Positions 4,085 through 63,763 of a stretch of DNA of 64,000 nt are shown piece by piece (position 1 is the first letter of the stretch; the number at the start of each line of letters is the position of its first letter). Source of the DNA: Natronomonas salinimetallica (GTDB lineage: Archaea; Halobacteriota; Halobacteria; Halobacteriales; Haloarculaceae); assembly GCF_013839515.1 (NCBI RefSeq), contig NZ_JACDNQ010000004.1, positions 124,001 through 188,000 of the forward strand, given 5' to 3'. Below the pieces are notes generated by a model. It saw nothing but the letters and a program-made list of their open reading frames with translations. It did no database searches and had not been told where the DNA came from. Both the position numbers and the translations under genes were made by a program.

Positions 4085-4092
4085 GTTAATAC
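4085..4092 (-). promoter_or_regulatory. Candidate TATA box at the MITE junction, upstream of the PAC2 gene
   Basis: The minus strand reads GTATTAAC across the MITE end and its target duplication, 40 bp before the PAC2 GTG start. It is the best TATA-like sequence in the short upstream region and would give a leader of about 14 nt. This is inference from spacing only. Confidence 0.35.
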
Positions 4093-4197
4093 TGACGGAC
4101 AAAAGAATGTACACACGACGCACGAGGATCACGCCGTTCGACGGAGCGAACGGCGGATCACTCGTGAGTCGGTTTCATTTGAATTCGTCCACCAGTA
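4090..4197 (+). mobile_element. MITE-like element copy 1 (108 bp) with TAA target duplication
   Basis: This is a non-coding 108-bp element with imperfect terminal inverted repeats (TACTGACGGACAAAA / TACTGGTGGACGAAA) and a central perfect hairpin CGCCGTTCG-ACGGAG-CGAACGGCG. It is flanked by TAA on both sides (4087-4089 and 4198-4200). It differs by one base from the copy at 51069 and by three from the copy at 63538. No transposase is encoded, so it would move only with a transposase supplied elsewhere. Confidence 0.85.
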
Positions 4198-4283
4198 TAA
4201 GTACCACTCTGGGTTCCAGATCGTGAGAACCACGCGCGCGGCGTCGACGCCCTCCCGTCCGAACCGACGGGCTCCGGCGAACC

Positions 4284-39121: not shown

Positions 39122-39611
39122 AGTGTCGGTGAATACCATCAGATACCATCGAAACCCAAGTGATGTCTGAAATGGGGGAGATATCCGGGCACGTGCGTGT
39201 ATCGGGTGTCGCTATTGCTCGTCGATTGCTCGTCGATAGCTACTCCGATACAGTCGAAACAGCGGTGGCCGCCCGGCGCTTTTTGTCTCCTCGACCCCCA
39301 CCGTCTTCGTCAGGGACTCATACTGCCGGACGTACGTTCGTGAACACCCGAACCGGTATATCTCCAAACCGCCGGTCGAACGTGCGTGTCGACTGCCCCG
39401 CGATTCAAGTCGGTACGTCCGGCAGTATCAGACGCCGACGGTCGCGTGGGAACAACGCGGAGGACTGTCCTGTTCGCCTCGATTCGCTCGACTGTGCGGC
39501 TGCGACGTCCGAGCACCCGCTCGCCGGACTGCGATCTCGCCTACGGGCTCAATCGCTGTCTGTCCGACGAGACTCGCTTCGCTCGTCTCGTTGGCTCCCA
39601 ACGTCTTCGCC
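39122..39611. other. Long intergenic region with hairpins near the aspS stop
   Basis: I see no credible gene in these roughly 490 bp. Two inverted repeats lie at the aspS side: ACGAGAC (39567-39573) with GTCTCGT (39585-39591), and CCAACGTCT (39598-39606) with AGACGTTGG (39622-39630). The second spans the aspS stop codon. They may help end or stabilise the aspS transcript; this is inference. Confidence 0.5.
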
Positions 39612-50866: not shown

Positions 50867-51067
50867 TGTTGGACGTGGATACGCCGACTCCGGATTTCAA
50901 CCTTTCGTCGGGCCGGGAGTAAAACCGCGTGAGAGCGCGCCTACGGGCGCGCGACGGGTCGGGCGTACGCGTGAGCTACACCGCAGCGTGAGCTACCCGT
51001 TTTATAAAATATCGAGGAGAAACCCCACGACGTCAGCCGTGGAAGGATGTCGCGGGGGAGGGCCCTA
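50867..51067. other. Border of the accessory island: hairpins, IS200/IS605-like end
   Basis: This stretch has no gene. It contains a GC hairpin (GCGCGC at 50935-50940 with 50947-50952). At 51023-51052, CCCCACGACGTCAGCCGTGG followed by AAGGATGTCG resembles the 3'-end hairpin of haloarchaeal IS200/IS605 (TnpB-type) elements. No transposase is left. The MITE copy follows at once. Confidence 0.45.
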
Positions 51068-51068
51068 A

Positions 51069-51176
51069 TACTGACGGACAAAAGAATGTACACACGACGC
51101 ACGAGGATCACGCCGTTCGACGGAGCGAACGGCGGATCACTCGTGAGTCGGTTTCATTTGATTTCGTCCACCAGTA
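51069..51176 (+). mobile_element. MITE-like element copy 2 (108 bp) with TAA target duplication
   Basis: This is the same element as at 4090 (one mismatch), flanked by TAA at 51066-51068 and 51177-51179. It ends 4 bp from the stop codon of the helicase/nuclease gene and separates that gene from the hairpin remnant next to topA. Confidence 0.85.
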
Positions 51177-51180
51177 TAAA

Positions 51181-54100
51181 TCAAGAGATCTGAACGCCTG
51201 CGTCCTGAAGGATCCGCTTCAAATATCCCTCCTCCTGGAAGTAGACGTTATGGTCTTCGTACGTCTCCACACAGACGTCCCGCGACTCCCGCAATGTAGT
51301 CTCCTCCGTGACAGAGATCACATAAGAGTGCATCTCGATATCGGGGTCATGTAACCGATCTTCGAGGACCTTGACTCGGTCATTCAGCTTCACCTTGTTC
51401 GATTTTTCGATGTCTTCCGGTTCGAAGACCATCCCGTGTGGATCTAAAAAGAGAACGGTTTGCTTATCAGCGGACTTGATCCAGAGGATGAAATCAGGGT
51501 ATCCACCCTGTTGGAATCCAATCCCCCTGCCTCGGGGGTTTCTGAGTAGGTAGACGTCCTGACGTCTGAGGTGTCCTGTTTTGACGATGGCGTCCAGCCG
51601 TTCGACCAGCCGCCGTTCGTCTTCGTTGAGCGACTGCGATGGCGCTTTCAACTGCTCTTGGGGGCCCGCCGCTTCGATTTGTTCCTTGACGAATAGGGGG
51701 GTGTAGAGGCTCCGATCGAAGTCGAGTGTGTACTCATTCGACGACGAGCCGTTCGCGGAGAGTATCCCATCGACCGTTTCGAGGAGCTCCGGTTCATCGG
51801 GCACCCGGAACGTCAACTCGAAGCGTAGTTCTGTGTCGTCCGGCCGAAGCAGTTGATACTCGCGGCGTCTGTCCTCCCAATCGGATTTCTTAGCGTTGAA
51901 CGCGTTGTCGACGTACGATCGGAGGATGGTGCGGACGATTTCTTCGGTTTCGGCTTTCGCCTCGATCGGGTCGTCGAGGGAAACGCGGGACGTGGGACAT
52001 TTTAGCGCGAAGTAATCGTTCTGAACGACTGCCTTGAGGCGAGCCACGTCGAGAACGAGATTCGAGTATTCCTGTCGTTCTTTGTACTCGATTAGGTCGA
52101 TGAGGAGCCGATCCCAGTCGACCAACTGGAGATCCAAGTCGTCACTCCGGGCGTTGTTCTTCTCCTTGGCGAGCGCCTGTGTGTCCGAGCTCCGGAGGGT
52201 TTGGACCTCGGAGTACAGATCAACGGCAGGGGCGTGATCTTCGGAGAGTGGGAGTCTCAGACTAGTTGACGAAACGTACTCCGTATCCTCCCGCTTCCGG
52301 GGGACGTTCAGCCCGTTTTCGACGAGATCCGCTCGTACGTCTGTTTCGACGGTCCGTTCGACGAACCCGGTTGGGATATCTTCTTTCTCGAGCTGTGTCT
52401 CAAATTCTTTGATGTAGTCCGCTTTGATGCCGAACACGTTCAGGCGCTCCAGGACGTCGATGTGTTCCGGTAGGTCGGACTGAGAGACGTCTACGTGCGA
52501 TGTCCGCTTGAGGGAGTTGTTCATCCCGCGAAGGCGGATACCGCGGCCGAAGAGCTGAATGATCTCGGAGCCTTCGCTGCGTCCGACCCGCATGAGCCCC
52601 ATGCTCGCCACGCGGTAGCTGTCCCAGCCTTCGGTGAATTTCTTCGCTCCGATGAGGACGGTCACGTTCGAGCTGTCCGAGTTCAGTTCCGAGAAGAGAG
52701 CCCGCTTGAACTCCTGTTCGTCGGTCGATATCTCGGTGTGTTCCTCGATACGGGTGATGAATTTCCGCGTGGAGCCGATATTGATGAGACCGAAGTAGTC
52801 CTCGTTCCGGCCGACTCGTAGTCCAATCTCGTCGTCGGCGTTCTTCAAGTGAACGACGCTCAGTTCGGCGTCGGTGGACGCGTTGAAGACGATGTCGAGT
52901 ATCTCGTCGTATATCTCCGCTGCCGAGAGTGCGGACTCCTCGAGATAATTGAACTTGTCTTCGAAGAGACTACGGCCGTCCTCGTCCAGGAAACCCGTCC
53001 CGGACAATACATCACCGATCTCGTCGATTACTGCATCACGTTCCCGGAGGAACCGAGCAAGGAATCGGACGACCGTTTCGACGTCCGAGGCTTTGTCTTT
53101 CTTCGTAATAGCCCGGCCGCTGACGGCGTTGACCGTTTGTCCAACGAAGATCCAGAGCGGGTCGTCGATCTCGAAGGGCTCTAGCTCGTCCTCGTTCTCC
53201 GTGTAGTACTTTTTTTGCTCGTAGAATGTGAGCAGGTTTGCGGTGAGGTATGCATCGCGGCGTGACTCTGTTTCTTCGGCGAGGTTGAGGACGTCGTACT
53301 CCTTTCCGAAGCCATCGATGTGGAAGTTCCGGAACGAATACTCGAAGATAATCGACTGGACGTACCGATTTTGGAGTTGTTCGTTGTCGATCGAGCTCAG
53401 TGCTTGCCCGAATGTAGCGCTATATTCGAAGGAAAATCCGTCATCGCCGATTACGTGCTCTCGGTACGTGATCCATCGGTCCCCTTGAGCGCCTTTGTGG
53501 CCCTCGTCTACGAAGACGAGGTTGTCCCCTTCGAACGTGTCTACGGAGTACGTTTTCTCCCCGGTTTCGTCACTGATTTTGTGGATGTCTAAGACGTTAA
53601 TCGTTGTCTCAGAAGTGGGGTTCCGCTCCGGACTGAACCGTCGTGCATCGATGCCACTCGCTTCGAACTCGTTTAGGTGCTGGTCGGTCAGGCCCTCGTT
53701 CGGCGTGATCAATAACAGGTTTTCCGGCTCTTGGTCACTGTAGTGTTGGAACTGCCAGAGGTTCGCGTGCATGATCAGGGTCTTTCCGGAGCCGGTTGCC
53801 ATCCAGTAGGCGAGTTTGCTGAGGTTGTCCTCCTCTAACGGGTAGAGGTCCTCGACGCTGAGTTCGGTTCGTTTGTCCTCGATTAGAGCGCTAAATTCCC
53901 CCTGCAGTTTCTCTTCGTGGTTGTGGTAGAGATCGAGGTAAATCTCGGTGAAAAGCAGTGACAGGTACTGGAAATACTTGAGACGGATGTCCTCCTCGCG
54001 GTTCTCCGCTAGCCGGTGTTCGTACGCAGCGATGTTTCGGTCGTACTGCTCGATGCGCCGCCAGAGCCACTCGGTCGGCTCCAGTTCGGTCGTGAGTTCT

Positions 54101-54240
54101 TCGATGAATCTGCTTCGGTTATCCGGCTTGAATCCTTCCTTTGCGTCGTTGAGCGCGTCTCGGAATTCGTCGAAGCTGGTTGCGCCGAACTTGCTATACA
54201 GATATTCGGTTAAGACGAGCTTCTGGCTGAAGTCATCCAT
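51181..54240 (-). CDS. DEAD/DEAH-box helicase with C-terminal nuclease-like region (type III Res-like)
   Basis: This 1019-aa superfamily 2 helicase has Walker A MATGSGKT (147-154), DEGH box (245-248), motif III SATFG (274-278) and motif VI QLFGRGIRLRG (562-572). Near the C-terminus GGYPDFILW (913-920) and VLFLDPHGM (929-937) sit where type III restriction subunits have a PD-(D/E)xK nuclease; the last residue here is His rather than Lys. It follows the methyltransferase gene by 3 bp, so the pair is one operon. GC content is clearly lower than in the neighbours. Likely role: DNA translocation and cleavage of unmodified foreign DNA. Confidence 0.88.
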   Translation of the reverse strand: MDDFSQKLVLTEYLYSKFGATSFDEFRDALNDAKEGFKPDNRSRFIEELTTELEPTEWLWRRIEQYDRNIAAYEHRLAENREEDIRLKYFQYLSLLFTEIYLDLYHNHEEKLQGEFSALIEDKRTELSVEDLYPLEEDNLSKLAYWMATGSGKTLIMHANLWQFQHYSDQEPENLLLITPNEGLTDQHLNEFEASGIDARRFSPERNPTSETTINVLDIHKISDETGEKTYSVDTFEGDNLVFVDEGHKGAQGDRWITYREHVIGDDGFSFEYSATFGQALSSIDNEQLQNRYVQSIIFEYSFRNFHIDGFGKEYDVLNLAEETESRRDAYLTANLLTFYEQKKYYTENEDELEPFEIDDPLWIFVGQTVNAVSGRAITKKDKASDVETVVRFLARFLRERDAVIDEIGDVLSGTGFLDEDGRSLFEDKFNYLEESALSAAEIYDEILDIVFNASTDAELSVVHLKNADDEIGLRVGRNEDYFGLINIGSTRKFITRIEEHTEISTDEQEFKRALFSELNSDSSNVTVLIGAKKFTEGWDSYRVASMGLMRVGRSEGSEIIQLFGRGIRLRGMNNSLKRTSHVDVSQSDLPEHIDVLERLNVFGIKADYIKEFETQLEKEDIPTGFVERTVETDVRADLVENGLNVPRKREDTEYVSSTSLRLPLSEDHAPAVDLYSEVQTLRSSDTQALAKEKNNARSDDLDLQLVDWDRLLIDLIEYKERQEYSNLVLDVARLKAVVQNDYFALKCPTSRVSLDDPIEAKAETEEIVRTILRSYVDNAFNAKKSDWEDRRREYQLLRPDDTELRFELTFRVPDEPELLETVDGILSANGSSSNEYTLDFDRSLYTPLFVKEQIEAAGPQEQLKAPSQSLNEDERRLVERLDAIVKTGHLRRQDVYLLRNPRGRGIGFQQGGYPDFILWIKSADKQTVLFLDPHGMVFEPEDIEKSNKVKLNDRVKVLEDRLHDPDIEMHSYVISVTEETTLRESRDVCVETYEDHNVYFQEEGYLKRILQDAGVQIS

Positions 54241-54243
54241 CGT

Positions 54244-57200
54244 TCACCACATCCGGGTTTCGAAGGCCTTCTCAATCGAGCGCGTCTCGGGGAGCGCACT
54301 ATCGCGGTTGATATAGACGACGTCCTCGTCGGCGAGGACGTCCTCCGTGAGGAAGTCCCGTTCGCTCTCAAAGAAGTCCTCGCCGTCATCGTCGTATACA
54401 GGACGCCAGACGACCCGTACGTCGCCATCCTGGTTCGTCCCGTGAACGACTCGGTACTCGCGGTCGAGTCGCTCGTAGCGGCGGATTCGGGAGACGCGCA
54501 GGCCGAGTAGGTAATTGAACGTTTCGACCATATTGATAAAGGTGTCTTTCAACTCGTCGTCCTGTCGGATCTGCATCTGGTATTCGAAGGGGGTTCGTAG
54601 CTCGTCGAGATCAAGCAACGAGGGGCCGTCGAGTTCGAATTCGAGGAAGTATTTCAGGTAGCTTCCGGTAAACTCGTCTACTTTGCTCTGCTGGCCATGG
54701 GATTCGAGATTGTCGAGCGTGTCTTCGTACTGCTCAAGAGAGACGTATTTGAAGACGTGAGAGACGCCCCGCGAACCCTCCGTCGTTGGTTCCCCGTCCT
54801 CCCACTCGTCGCTGTATACCGATTTAATGATGCGGGGTTTCAGGACGTCTTGGAAGTGTTCGCCCATGTCCACTACGATGTACTTTCGATCGGTGCCTTC
54901 CTCTTCGTTCAGTTGGATCGTCGCTTCAGCGGTCGTCCCGGATCCCGCGAAGAAATCCAGAATGTAATCGTCGGATTGGGTGCCCAGTTTTGCGAATCGT
55001 TTGACGAGAGCGACGGGCTTCGGGTTGTTGAACAGGCCCCGCTCACCGAACATGTCCCGGAGGTAGGTTGTGGCGTTAGTCGTCGTATCGAGATCGTCCC
55101 AGAGCGTGGTGGGCGTAGTGCCTCGGTCTTTCGCTTCGCTCAGGAAGCGTTTTCGCTTCGGACGGCCGGTTCCCGACTTCCCGAAGACGATCCGGTCGTC
55201 CTCTTTCAGTTGCTGGAAGGTTTCGTAGTCGTTCTTCCAGCTGTTGCCCTCCTTTGGCGTGAAGGTTTCGCCCGTTTCTGGGTTCGTGATCTCGTATCGC
55301 TGGTTCGGTCGTTCCCCGCCTACTTCGAAGGGGTCTGCTTTCCATGGCCCGCGCGGATCGTCATCCGGATTCTCGAAGCCCTCCGTGATCGCGGGTAGTC
55401 GGAATCGGTCTTTGTTGTTCTTGAACGTCTCGCTGTCCTTCGCGAAGAACAGGTTGTGCGTATGGGCGGTCGAGATCGGGGCAGGGTTCGTCACCGATTT
55501 GGTCGAGTTCCAGATGATGTCCGAGACGAAGTTTTCTCGACCGAACACGTCGTCGAGGGCTTTCTTCAGGTTCGAGAATTCGTCGTCGCTAATGGAGACG
55601 AACAGTTTGCCGTTGTCACCGAGTAGCTGATTGGCGAGTGAACTCCGATCGTACATCATCGACAACCAACTGGAACTCTGGAAGCTGTCTTTGTAGACGA
55701 ACCCTTCGTCGTCACCGGTGTTGTATGGCGGGTCGATGTACGACGCCGCAATGCTGTCACCGAACGTCGGTTCCAGAAGATTCAGTGCGTGGACGTTTTC
55801 GGATTGGATCGCTAAGCCATCGACTGTCTCGTCCAATGGTTCGATTTCTGCCAGAATATCGAATACGAACTCGGTGGCAAAGTACTGCGTGTCCAGCATC
55901 ACCGACGGGTTGTTTTCGAGGAACGTCCCGTCGATAACCTCTCCTTCGGTGAATCTGGATAAGCCTTCGCCCTCGCTGTCGTCGATCGCGTACAGATCCT
56001 TCCACGCTGCGATCTGTTCGTCGTTGTCGAGAATCCGCGGGTAATACTCCTCGGGGATGTGGTCTAATGTGATACAGTAGTCACTATCGACGACGAACTT
56101 CTGTTTCTCGAATAGGCGTTTCTGGAAATCCTCGATTTCGGAGACGAGGTCGATGATCTCTGTGGCGATGTGCTCGACGGCGTTGAGCCGTGCGCGGACG
56201 TGAAAGGGAATTTCACCGCGCTCGTTGGTGATCTCCTTCCAGGAGAAGACCTCATTTTTCAGGTAGAATTCGAGTTCCCGCTGGAGGAACCCTTTCAGGT
56301 CCTTGTGGATGAAGTAGTCACTCTCGTTTTTCGTCCGGTAGTTCCGCAGGTGGCGCTGGAGGACCGTGCTGTCACTCCGGTCGACGTCAGAATCTTGTCG
56401 GAGTGTCTCCTCGAGCTGGGTGCTTGCGTGGGAAAGAATCCGATCCTCGATTACGCCCTGGATGTCTCGTCCTTTCGTTCGGGAGCCTTCCGACAGGTCG
56501 TACGTGTCGTAGTCCTCGGGTGTGAGTGCTCTATATTCGAAGTGTACAGCGACATCACGACCGTCTTGGCTGACTGGGTCGGACTCCCGGAGCACGAAAT
56601 ATTTCCCGTCGTCCTTGCGGTCGTTTCGCTTGATCTGGGCGTCGTGAAGTCTGAACGTGATATCGTAGGCGTCCTTACGGAAGGTGTAATCGTTGAACGC
56701 CTCACTCGTTTTGACGAAATACTGCTGTCGGTTAGCCCAGTGGAGTTTGACCTCCTCACCGTTGTACGGGATCGCGTATTTTTCTTGGTTGGCCGCTCGA
56801 CGCTGTGGAACGAAGTCGCCGTCCTTGTAGTAACGCGTAAAGAATCGGTACAGGTCTTGGTAGATGGCCGCCTCGGTGCGTTCTGTGATCTCCGCTTGTT
56901 CTACCTCTTGTTTGGCGTCGTAGTAGGCCTTCGCTCGGTCTTTGACGATTCCTTGGGCGTCCTCTGGGATCGCCTCTTCGTCGATATTTCCGTGGTCGTC
57001 GATCCAGTTCGGGAATTCGTCTCGGATTTGGGCTTTGACTTCGTCGAGCCGGCGTTCCGCTTTCCGTCCTTTGGCGGATTGGGACGCCGCTAATTCGGTC
57101 TCGACGCGTTCGGGAAGGCCCTCGTCGAGAAACGCGCTGATTTCGTCGCGTTTCTCGTTCATGATCCGGTAGATACCGAAATCGAGATCGGCGCTCTCGA

Positions 57201-57459
57201 ACTGGAAGAGTTTCTCGAGAAGTTCGCGGAACCGTTCGTATTTCTCCGTTCGTTCCGGCTTCGTTCTCAGGTCGTGTTCTTCCAAAAATGTCAGCAGTGT
57301 CCGTCGTTTAGCGGGTGATTTGATGCCGCGAATGTCCCCCAGTTCCTCCCACGTGATACCTCGAAGATCTTCGAGTTCTTCGTAGCCTGCATCTCTGAAA
57401 TTCTCTATCTTAGACGGACCGAATCCTCGTAGATTTTCGATGTCCGCGAGTTCAGCCAT
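54244..57459 (-). CDS. Type III-like (beta-class) DNA adenine methyltransferase with N-terminal helix-hairpin-helix domain
   Basis: In this 1071-aa protein the catalytic motif DPPYNTG (576-582) precedes the SAM-binding motif FFAGSGTT (836-843), the order of beta-class amino-methyltransferases such as type III Mod. Residues 1-60 carry two helix-hairpin-helix-like motifs (LRGFGPSKIENFRDAGYEEL and LRGITWEELGDIRGIKSPA). Residues about 65-540 form a large extra helical region not found in classical Mod proteins of about 650 aa. The target-recognition region lies between the two catalytic motifs. A TATA box sits 27 bp upstream; the helicase gene starts 3 bp downstream. Confidence 0.88.
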   Translation of the reverse strand: MAELADIENLRGFGPSKIENFRDAGYEELEDLRGITWEELGDIRGIKSPAKRRTLLTFLEEHDLRTKPERTEKYERFRELLEKLFQFESADLDFGIYRIMNEKRDEISAFLDEGLPERVETELAASQSAKGRKAERRLDEVKAQIRDEFPNWIDDHGNIDEEAIPEDAQGIVKDRAKAYYDAKQEVEQAEITERTEAAIYQDLYRFFTRYYKDGDFVPQRRAANQEKYAIPYNGEEVKLHWANRQQYFVKTSEAFNDYTFRKDAYDITFRLHDAQIKRNDRKDDGKYFVLRESDPVSQDGRDVAVHFEYRALTPEDYDTYDLSEGSRTKGRDIQGVIEDRILSHASTQLEETLRQDSDVDRSDSTVLQRHLRNYRTKNESDYFIHKDLKGFLQRELEFYLKNEVFSWKEITNERGEIPFHVRARLNAVEHIATEIIDLVSEIEDFQKRLFEKQKFVVDSDYCITLDHIPEEYYPRILDNDEQIAAWKDLYAIDDSEGEGLSRFTEGEVIDGTFLENNPSVMLDTQYFATEFVFDILAEIEPLDETVDGLAIQSENVHALNLLEPTFGDSIAASYIDPPYNTGDDEGFVYKDSFQSSSWLSMMYDRSSLANQLLGDNGKLFVSISDDEFSNLKKALDDVFGRENFVSDIIWNSTKSVTNPAPISTAHTHNLFFAKDSETFKNNKDRFRLPAITEGFENPDDDPRGPWKADPFEVGGERPNQRYEITNPETGETFTPKEGNSWKNDYETFQQLKEDDRIVFGKSGTGRPKRKRFLSEAKDRGTTPTTLWDDLDTTTNATTYLRDMFGERGLFNNPKPVALVKRFAKLGTQSDDYILDFFAGSGTTAEATIQLNEEEGTDRKYIVVDMGEHFQDVLKPRIIKSVYSDEWEDGEPTTEGSRGVSHVFKYVSLEQYEDTLDNLESHGQQSKVDEFTGSYLKYFLEFELDGPSLLDLDELRTPFEYQMQIRQDDELKDTFINMVETFNYLLGLRVSRIRRYERLDREYRVVHGTNQDGDVRVVWRPVYDDDGEDFFESERDFLTEDVLADEDVVYINRDSALPETRSIEKAFETRMW

Positions 57460-63420: not shown

Positions 63421-63537
63421 AAAGCGTACCGTCCGCCCTCCGGTCGGGGACCGTGGGGCTCCCGTACGTGGCCCGTCGATCACGGCCCGGAGACGCGGCG
63501 CGACACGGCCTTCGCCCCCGGCGAGACGGTATAGTGA

Positions 63538-63645
63538 TACTGGTGGACGAAATCAAATGAAACCGACTCACGAGTGATCCGCCGTTCGCTCCGTCGAACG
63601 GCGTGATCCTCGTGCGTCGTGTGTACATTCTTTTGTTCATCAGTA
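63538..63645 (-). mobile_element. MITE-like element copy 3 (108 bp, inverted) with TGA target duplication
   Basis: This is the same element as at 4090 and 51069 but in inverse orientation, with two mismatches to copy 2 (both close to one terminus). It is flanked by TGA at 63535-63537 and 63646-63648. It lies between trkA and the small gene at 63764. Confidence 0.85.
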
Positions 63646-63763
63646 TGAGTTGTGAAACGAGGGGGTCGCCGACCGGAAGCCGTTCCGAATCGAGGGCACC
63701 GACGCTGCGGTCCGGCGGTATCACACACGAACGTTGACGTGGGGCGGTAGCGAACCGTCACGT

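Follow-up and report, generated by a model that had tools for sequence, protein, structure and literature searches.

A high-copy 108-bp MITE family with TNA target duplications in Natronomonas salinimetallica and its sister families in haloarchaea

Three nearly identical 108-bp sequences lie in a 64-kb stretch of the Natronomonas salinimetallica genome (the window, meaning the whole stretch of DNA that was analysed), raising the question of what kind of element they are and by what means they spread. An earlier note, made from the sequence alone, had described them as a MITE family with TNA target duplications that moved recently in trans, and had remarked that TNA duplications are known for some IS5-group DDE transposases. 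Here we examined the element, designated MITE-A, in the window, in the whole genome and in related haloarchaea.

The element in the window and in the genome

The sequence agreed with the note on all three elements, each exactly 108 bp long and placed between identical triplets. The first copy (4090–4197, plus strand, 99% identical to most other copies) is flanked by TAA at 4087–4089 and 4198–4200. An inverted-repeat search located its left terminal inverted repeat TACTGACGGACAAAA at 4090–4104 (plus) and its right one, TACTGGTGGACGAAT, at 4183–4197 (minus), and sequence and folding together placed a central hairpin, CGCCGTTCG-ACGGAG-CGAACGGCG, at 4132–4155. The second copy (51069–51176, plus) has TAA at 51066–51068 and 51177–51179 and ends 4 bp from the stop codon (TCA, 51181–51183) of a minus-strand ORF at 51181–54240. 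The third (63538–63645, minus) is intergenic, with TGA at 63535–63537 and 63646–63648 on the plus strand. Beside the second copy are two large adjoining minus-strand ORFs, 51181–54240 (1019 aa) and 54244–57459 (1071 aa); the product of the former was restriction-type helicase-like, judged by eye. The count of three thus held for MITE-A in the window, but the family is far larger and a different fourth element had been missed. This separate 107-bp element, with ends TACTGCCGGACGTAC, lies at 39321–39427 between TCA triplets at 39318–39320 and 39428–39430, and is the one copy in the window of a third family of this genome, MITE-C.

MITE-A is short and non-coding, with TACTG ends. As the note had proposed, the two ends, TACTGACGGACAAAA / TACTGGTGGACGAAA, form imperfect inverted repeats, and the end pattern had 6 matches in the window versus 0.32 expected. 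One strand folds into a single long hairpin (−32 kcal/mol as DNA, z = −6.7). Matching of the core pattern showed about 67 copies in the 2.78-Mb genome (G000), while a reversed control pattern had 0 matches genome-wide; a full-length search of the whole genome gave 40 scored matches. Among 63 complete copies, 61 were exactly 108 bp and most had 0–2 differences from the consensus. In three copies (L026, L068, L085) the central palindrome is flipped relative to the ends.

Target duplications and empty sites

Identical TNA triplets were found on both sides of 58 of the 63 complete copies (32 TCA, 12 TGA, 9 TAA and 5 TTA). Matching flanks have a chance of 1/64 per copy, giving p of about 1e-98 for this count. 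The preferred site was C-TNA-G/A, and TCA prevailed over TGA by 32:12 in element orientation. Two of the remaining five copies had TNA triplets with differing N, and three were located at CTA/TA. One CTA/TA copy showed a clear 2-bp TA duplication within a repeat of ~84 bp, so the stagger may vary. This fourth short repeat (TATAGTAGACATCG...TCTACTATA; L063, L083, L087, L092, L051) is itself a target of MITE-A insertion, and end-to-end insertions, with MITE-A in a TNA abutting another element's end, were seen at L033, L072 and L091.

The note had also suggested comparing orthologous loci for empty sites, and such sites were found. The orthologue of copy L027 in another genome of the genus (G003) lacked the element and had a single target (TCG; TCA in G000). 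Another MITE-A copy was inserted within a member of a second family, MITE-B, at TCA (TGA/TGA from the MITE-A side), where intact MITE-B copies have a single TCA. With its terminal inverted repeats, target duplications and empty sites, MITE-A is a MITE-type non-autonomous DNA transposon that has undergone a burst in this genome. The uniform length and low divergence of its copies agree with recent movement, but one insertion (L012 in G000, L047 in G003, flanks 87% identical) is common to two species of the genus. Either the insertion is old or the site was hit on two occasions; the copies are not all new, and activity has not been only recent.

Insertion at stop codons

For insertion statistics, every TNA site of the same flanks served as background and stops were called by a coding-statistics test. 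Twelve of 58 MITE-A insertions were exactly at a coding-like stop codon, compared to 134 of 3876 background TNA sites (OR 7.3, p 9e-7). Stops were also enriched relative to intergenic sites (11 vs 34 insertions, against 99 vs 1640 in the background; OR 5.4, p 5e-5), while coding sequence was avoided (13 of 58 insertions, OR 0.2). Nine of the ten tested proteins of these stop-codon-insertion genes had Pfam family matches, and the genes included those for ribosomal protein S8e (rps8e), Trm56 (trm56), a universal stress protein, aspartate-semialdehyde dehydrogenase (asd), photolyase, an IclR regulator and MsrA (msrA). At one locus (L067, G000:C26:128500-135000), a 4-kb segment held four MITE-A copies, and three of these lay precisely at the stops of rps8e, trm56 and an adjacent gene.

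Each of the four TNA triplets reads as a stop on one of the strands (TAA and TGA directly, TTA and TCA on the other strand), so the duplication rebuilds the stop and leaves the gene intact. Tolerance through selection suffices to explain the enrichment. Active targeting of stop codons or transcript ends appears rather unlikely, even though stops were hit about fivefold over intergenic TNA sites and the right end of the element faced the gene in 10 of the 12 cases (p = 0.04). The numbers are small, the sequence around stops may just happen to fit the preferred C-TNA-G site, and insertions elsewhere would be removed by selection.

Relatives in other haloarchaea

Of 60 related genomes, only G003, a complete genome from the same genus, contained the element at its full 108 bp, so that the case that would have spoken for a conserved element, the same loci occupied in distant genera, was not encountered. 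The family in G003 is an older version of its own (58 candidates, of which 14 were scored at 87–94% identity, with further copies at 83–87%). One diverged copy was present in G017, and two further genomes had short partial matches.

Sister families shared the TACTG ends and TNA duplications of MITE-A but differed in their interiors. MITE-B (107 bp, ends TACTGTCGGACGTAA) had at least 11 intact copies in G000, and the TNA duplication was present in 11 of the 11 found. Across the family and order, same-end patterns were detected in Halomarina halobia, Salinibaculum litoreum and Halostella pelagica, in Salinirussus and Halovenus MAGs, and in the QS_4 and SW_7/SW_10 Halobacteriales MAGs. These elements fell into size classes of about 40, 76–79 and 107–108 bp, with TNA on both sides in nearly all. 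A comparison of twelve 78-bp elements drawn from different genomes showed that compensatory changes have kept both the terminal and the central stem: 8 pairs had changed on both sides, a number reached by 0 of 500 shuffles. Such covariation could also come from palindrome repair at the DNA level.

The covariation across genera and the position at gene ends are also what a conserved structural RNA or regulatory element would show. We regard this reading as extremely improbable given the target duplications, the empty sites, the insertions into other repeats and the differing loci in different species; in addition, Rfam matched only two tRNAs in the window.

Many 108-bp elements in the SW_7/SW_10/QS_4 MAGs lacked one terminal repeat of ~14 bp and were otherwise intact (L362, L375, L377, L379, L389, L408, L410, L425, L430, L431), reflecting either an assembly effect or one-ended events. 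Arrays of ends were also observed. Five tandem 23-bp units, each the right end plus TGA, lie at a contig break beside an IS end in G000 (L062:61-190, G000:C3:61-190), and similar 25/19-bp arrays occur in G361 (L155, G361:C44). Because nesting of this kind is directly visible in a MAG, the most likely reading of the arrays is nesting, with elements inserted into a TNA that lies just within the end of another element.

Search for the mobilizing enzyme

MITE-A was found split by an IS at element positions 83–90, with an 8-bp duplication, GTTTCATT. The splitting IS appears to be IS5-like and related to PF01609 elements. Judging from contig ends, the split element occurs in the same orientation at at least two loci with differing TNA triplets, which suggests that the TACTG ends are probably competent to carry cargo. 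The sequence GGCTCTGTTGAA beside some copies was assigned to an unrelated IS, whose 8-bp duplication lies within the element or adjacent to it.

The note had proposed searching for an IS with the same TACTG ends. None was found among the matches listed for G000, G003 and the family and order genome samples, many of them draft assemblies, and no transposase with matching ends appeared there, which counts against the best explanation given below. PF01609 (IS5-type) loci, 4 in G000 and 16 in G003, included none with TACTG ends. DDE_Tnp_1_2 (PF13586), which we take to be the DDE domain expected in TNA-duplicating IS5 relatives, was absent from all 12 carrier genomes. Where checked, unpaired ends and large inverted pairs turned out to be short elements or pairs formed by chance. 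In G436, an inverted pair of 1249 bp resembled an autonomous IS, but it encloses a regulator-like ORF with a truncated element on one side and a second element on the other, and its flanks are TCA/TAT; larger inverted pairs in MAGs enclosed ordinary genes (aminotransferase-like and ABC-transporter ORFs). In viral contigs the ends had chance matches only, with no TNA-flanked pairs, and plasmid and phage records yielded nothing.

The TNA duplication, present in both MITE-A and MITE-B, agrees with mobilisation of the IS5 type, but an IS5-group partner is putative. TNA duplication is on record for IS5 relatives, and MITE-A may be an ordinary MITE whose partner IS, of the IS5 type and with matching ends, either dropped out of the draft assembly or was collapsed there. 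We hold the case for this origin to be evenly balanced. G000 is in 30 contigs, and multi-copy ISs break contigs; against this, the TACTG ends listed near contig ends of G000 were all explained by a MITE or a MITE::IS composite, searches of the complete genomes G003 and G419 yielded no IS with these ends, and PF13586 was missing from the carriers.

A REPIN/RAYT-like arrangement, with a single host gene lacking TACTG ends that maintains and moves hairpins over long vertical descent, was also considered and is unlikely. Common to the two systems are hairpins that persist through vertical descent although no autonomous copy accompanies them. No such copy was found among the matches listed despite hundreds of elements in many genera, G000 and G003 have separate species-specific families with one common site, and the pairing of both stems is maintained across genera. 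However, the 3-bp TNA duplication is near universal in these elements, whereas known RAYTs are HUH (Y1) enzymes, which are not known to leave a duplication, and no candidate gene was identified for MITE-A. Quite unlikely too, in our view, is a DDE counterpart of the REPIN/RAYT partnership, in which a host-encoded or highly diverged DDE transposase without TACTG ends would maintain the size-classed hairpin superfamily of haloarchaea and place hairpins at TNA stops, which the duplication would rebuild.

Proposed mechanism

While the target site, its duplication and the burst were observed directly, DDE chemistry and an enzyme acting in trans are what we infer from them. A DDE-type transposase supplied in trans would recognise the TACTG..GGAC ends and cut TNA with a 3-bp stagger, after which gap repair would produce the TNA duplication. 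One variant burst recently in G000 to about 67 copies. MITE-A belongs to a set of sister families (about 40, 78 and 108 bp) with common ends and target but not interior, and insertions persist mainly between genes and at stop codons. The enzyme may have been lost recently, may reside on an IS with unrecognised ends, or may be encoded by a gene without such ends. Taken as a whole, a trans-acting DDE transposase working on shared ends at TNA, a recent MITE-A burst, sister families and survival between genes and at stops form a highly probable account, with the three copies at CTA/TA rather than TNA counting against it.

Under this account, dozens of unrelated-looking short haloarchaeal repeats would belong to a single system that shares its ends and its target, which gives the hunt for the missing enzyme a clear aim. 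It also shows how a transposon whose target equals a stop codon can multiply in gene-dense genomes while leaving genes unbroken. Since the ends appear cargo-competent, knowledge of the enzyme could turn them into a small genetic tool for haloarchaea.

Comparison with known systems

The kind of element is known, and no published description of MITE-A was found in the literature searched, whose scope excluded most subscription journals and ISfinder; an orphan, size-classed, stop-codon-tolerant superfamily appears to be undescribed there. Like MITEs of the IS5 group and PIF-Harbinger (TNA or TWA duplication), MITE-A is short and non-coding, with terminal inverted repeats, a 3-bp T-N-A duplication and high copy number; it differs from them in that no partner IS was found, no DDE_Tnp_1_2 was detected in the 12 carriers, and sizes are discrete at about 40, 78 and 108 bp. 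RUP of Streptococcus pneumoniae is a 107-bp high-copy MITE that uses TA and has the partner IS630-Spn1 (PMC2229807). Its size and copy number are similar to those of MITE-A, whereas MITE-A uses TNA and no partner was found.

SMR-A of Haloquadratum walsbyi is about 110 bp long, with up to 54 copies, inverted repeats unrelated to known transposons and unknown mobilisation; it makes no target duplication and aims at PATEs / IS605 elements (PMC3119063). Compared by description only, MITE-A resembles SMR-A in size, prominent inverted repeats, high copy number and the lack of a known mover, but differs in its TNA duplications and its sites between genes and at stop codons. The Haloquadratum catalogue separates MITEs, which share ends with a transposon, from SMRs, which are orphans without duplication (PMC3119063). 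In these terms, the MITE-A family lies between MITEs and SMRs.
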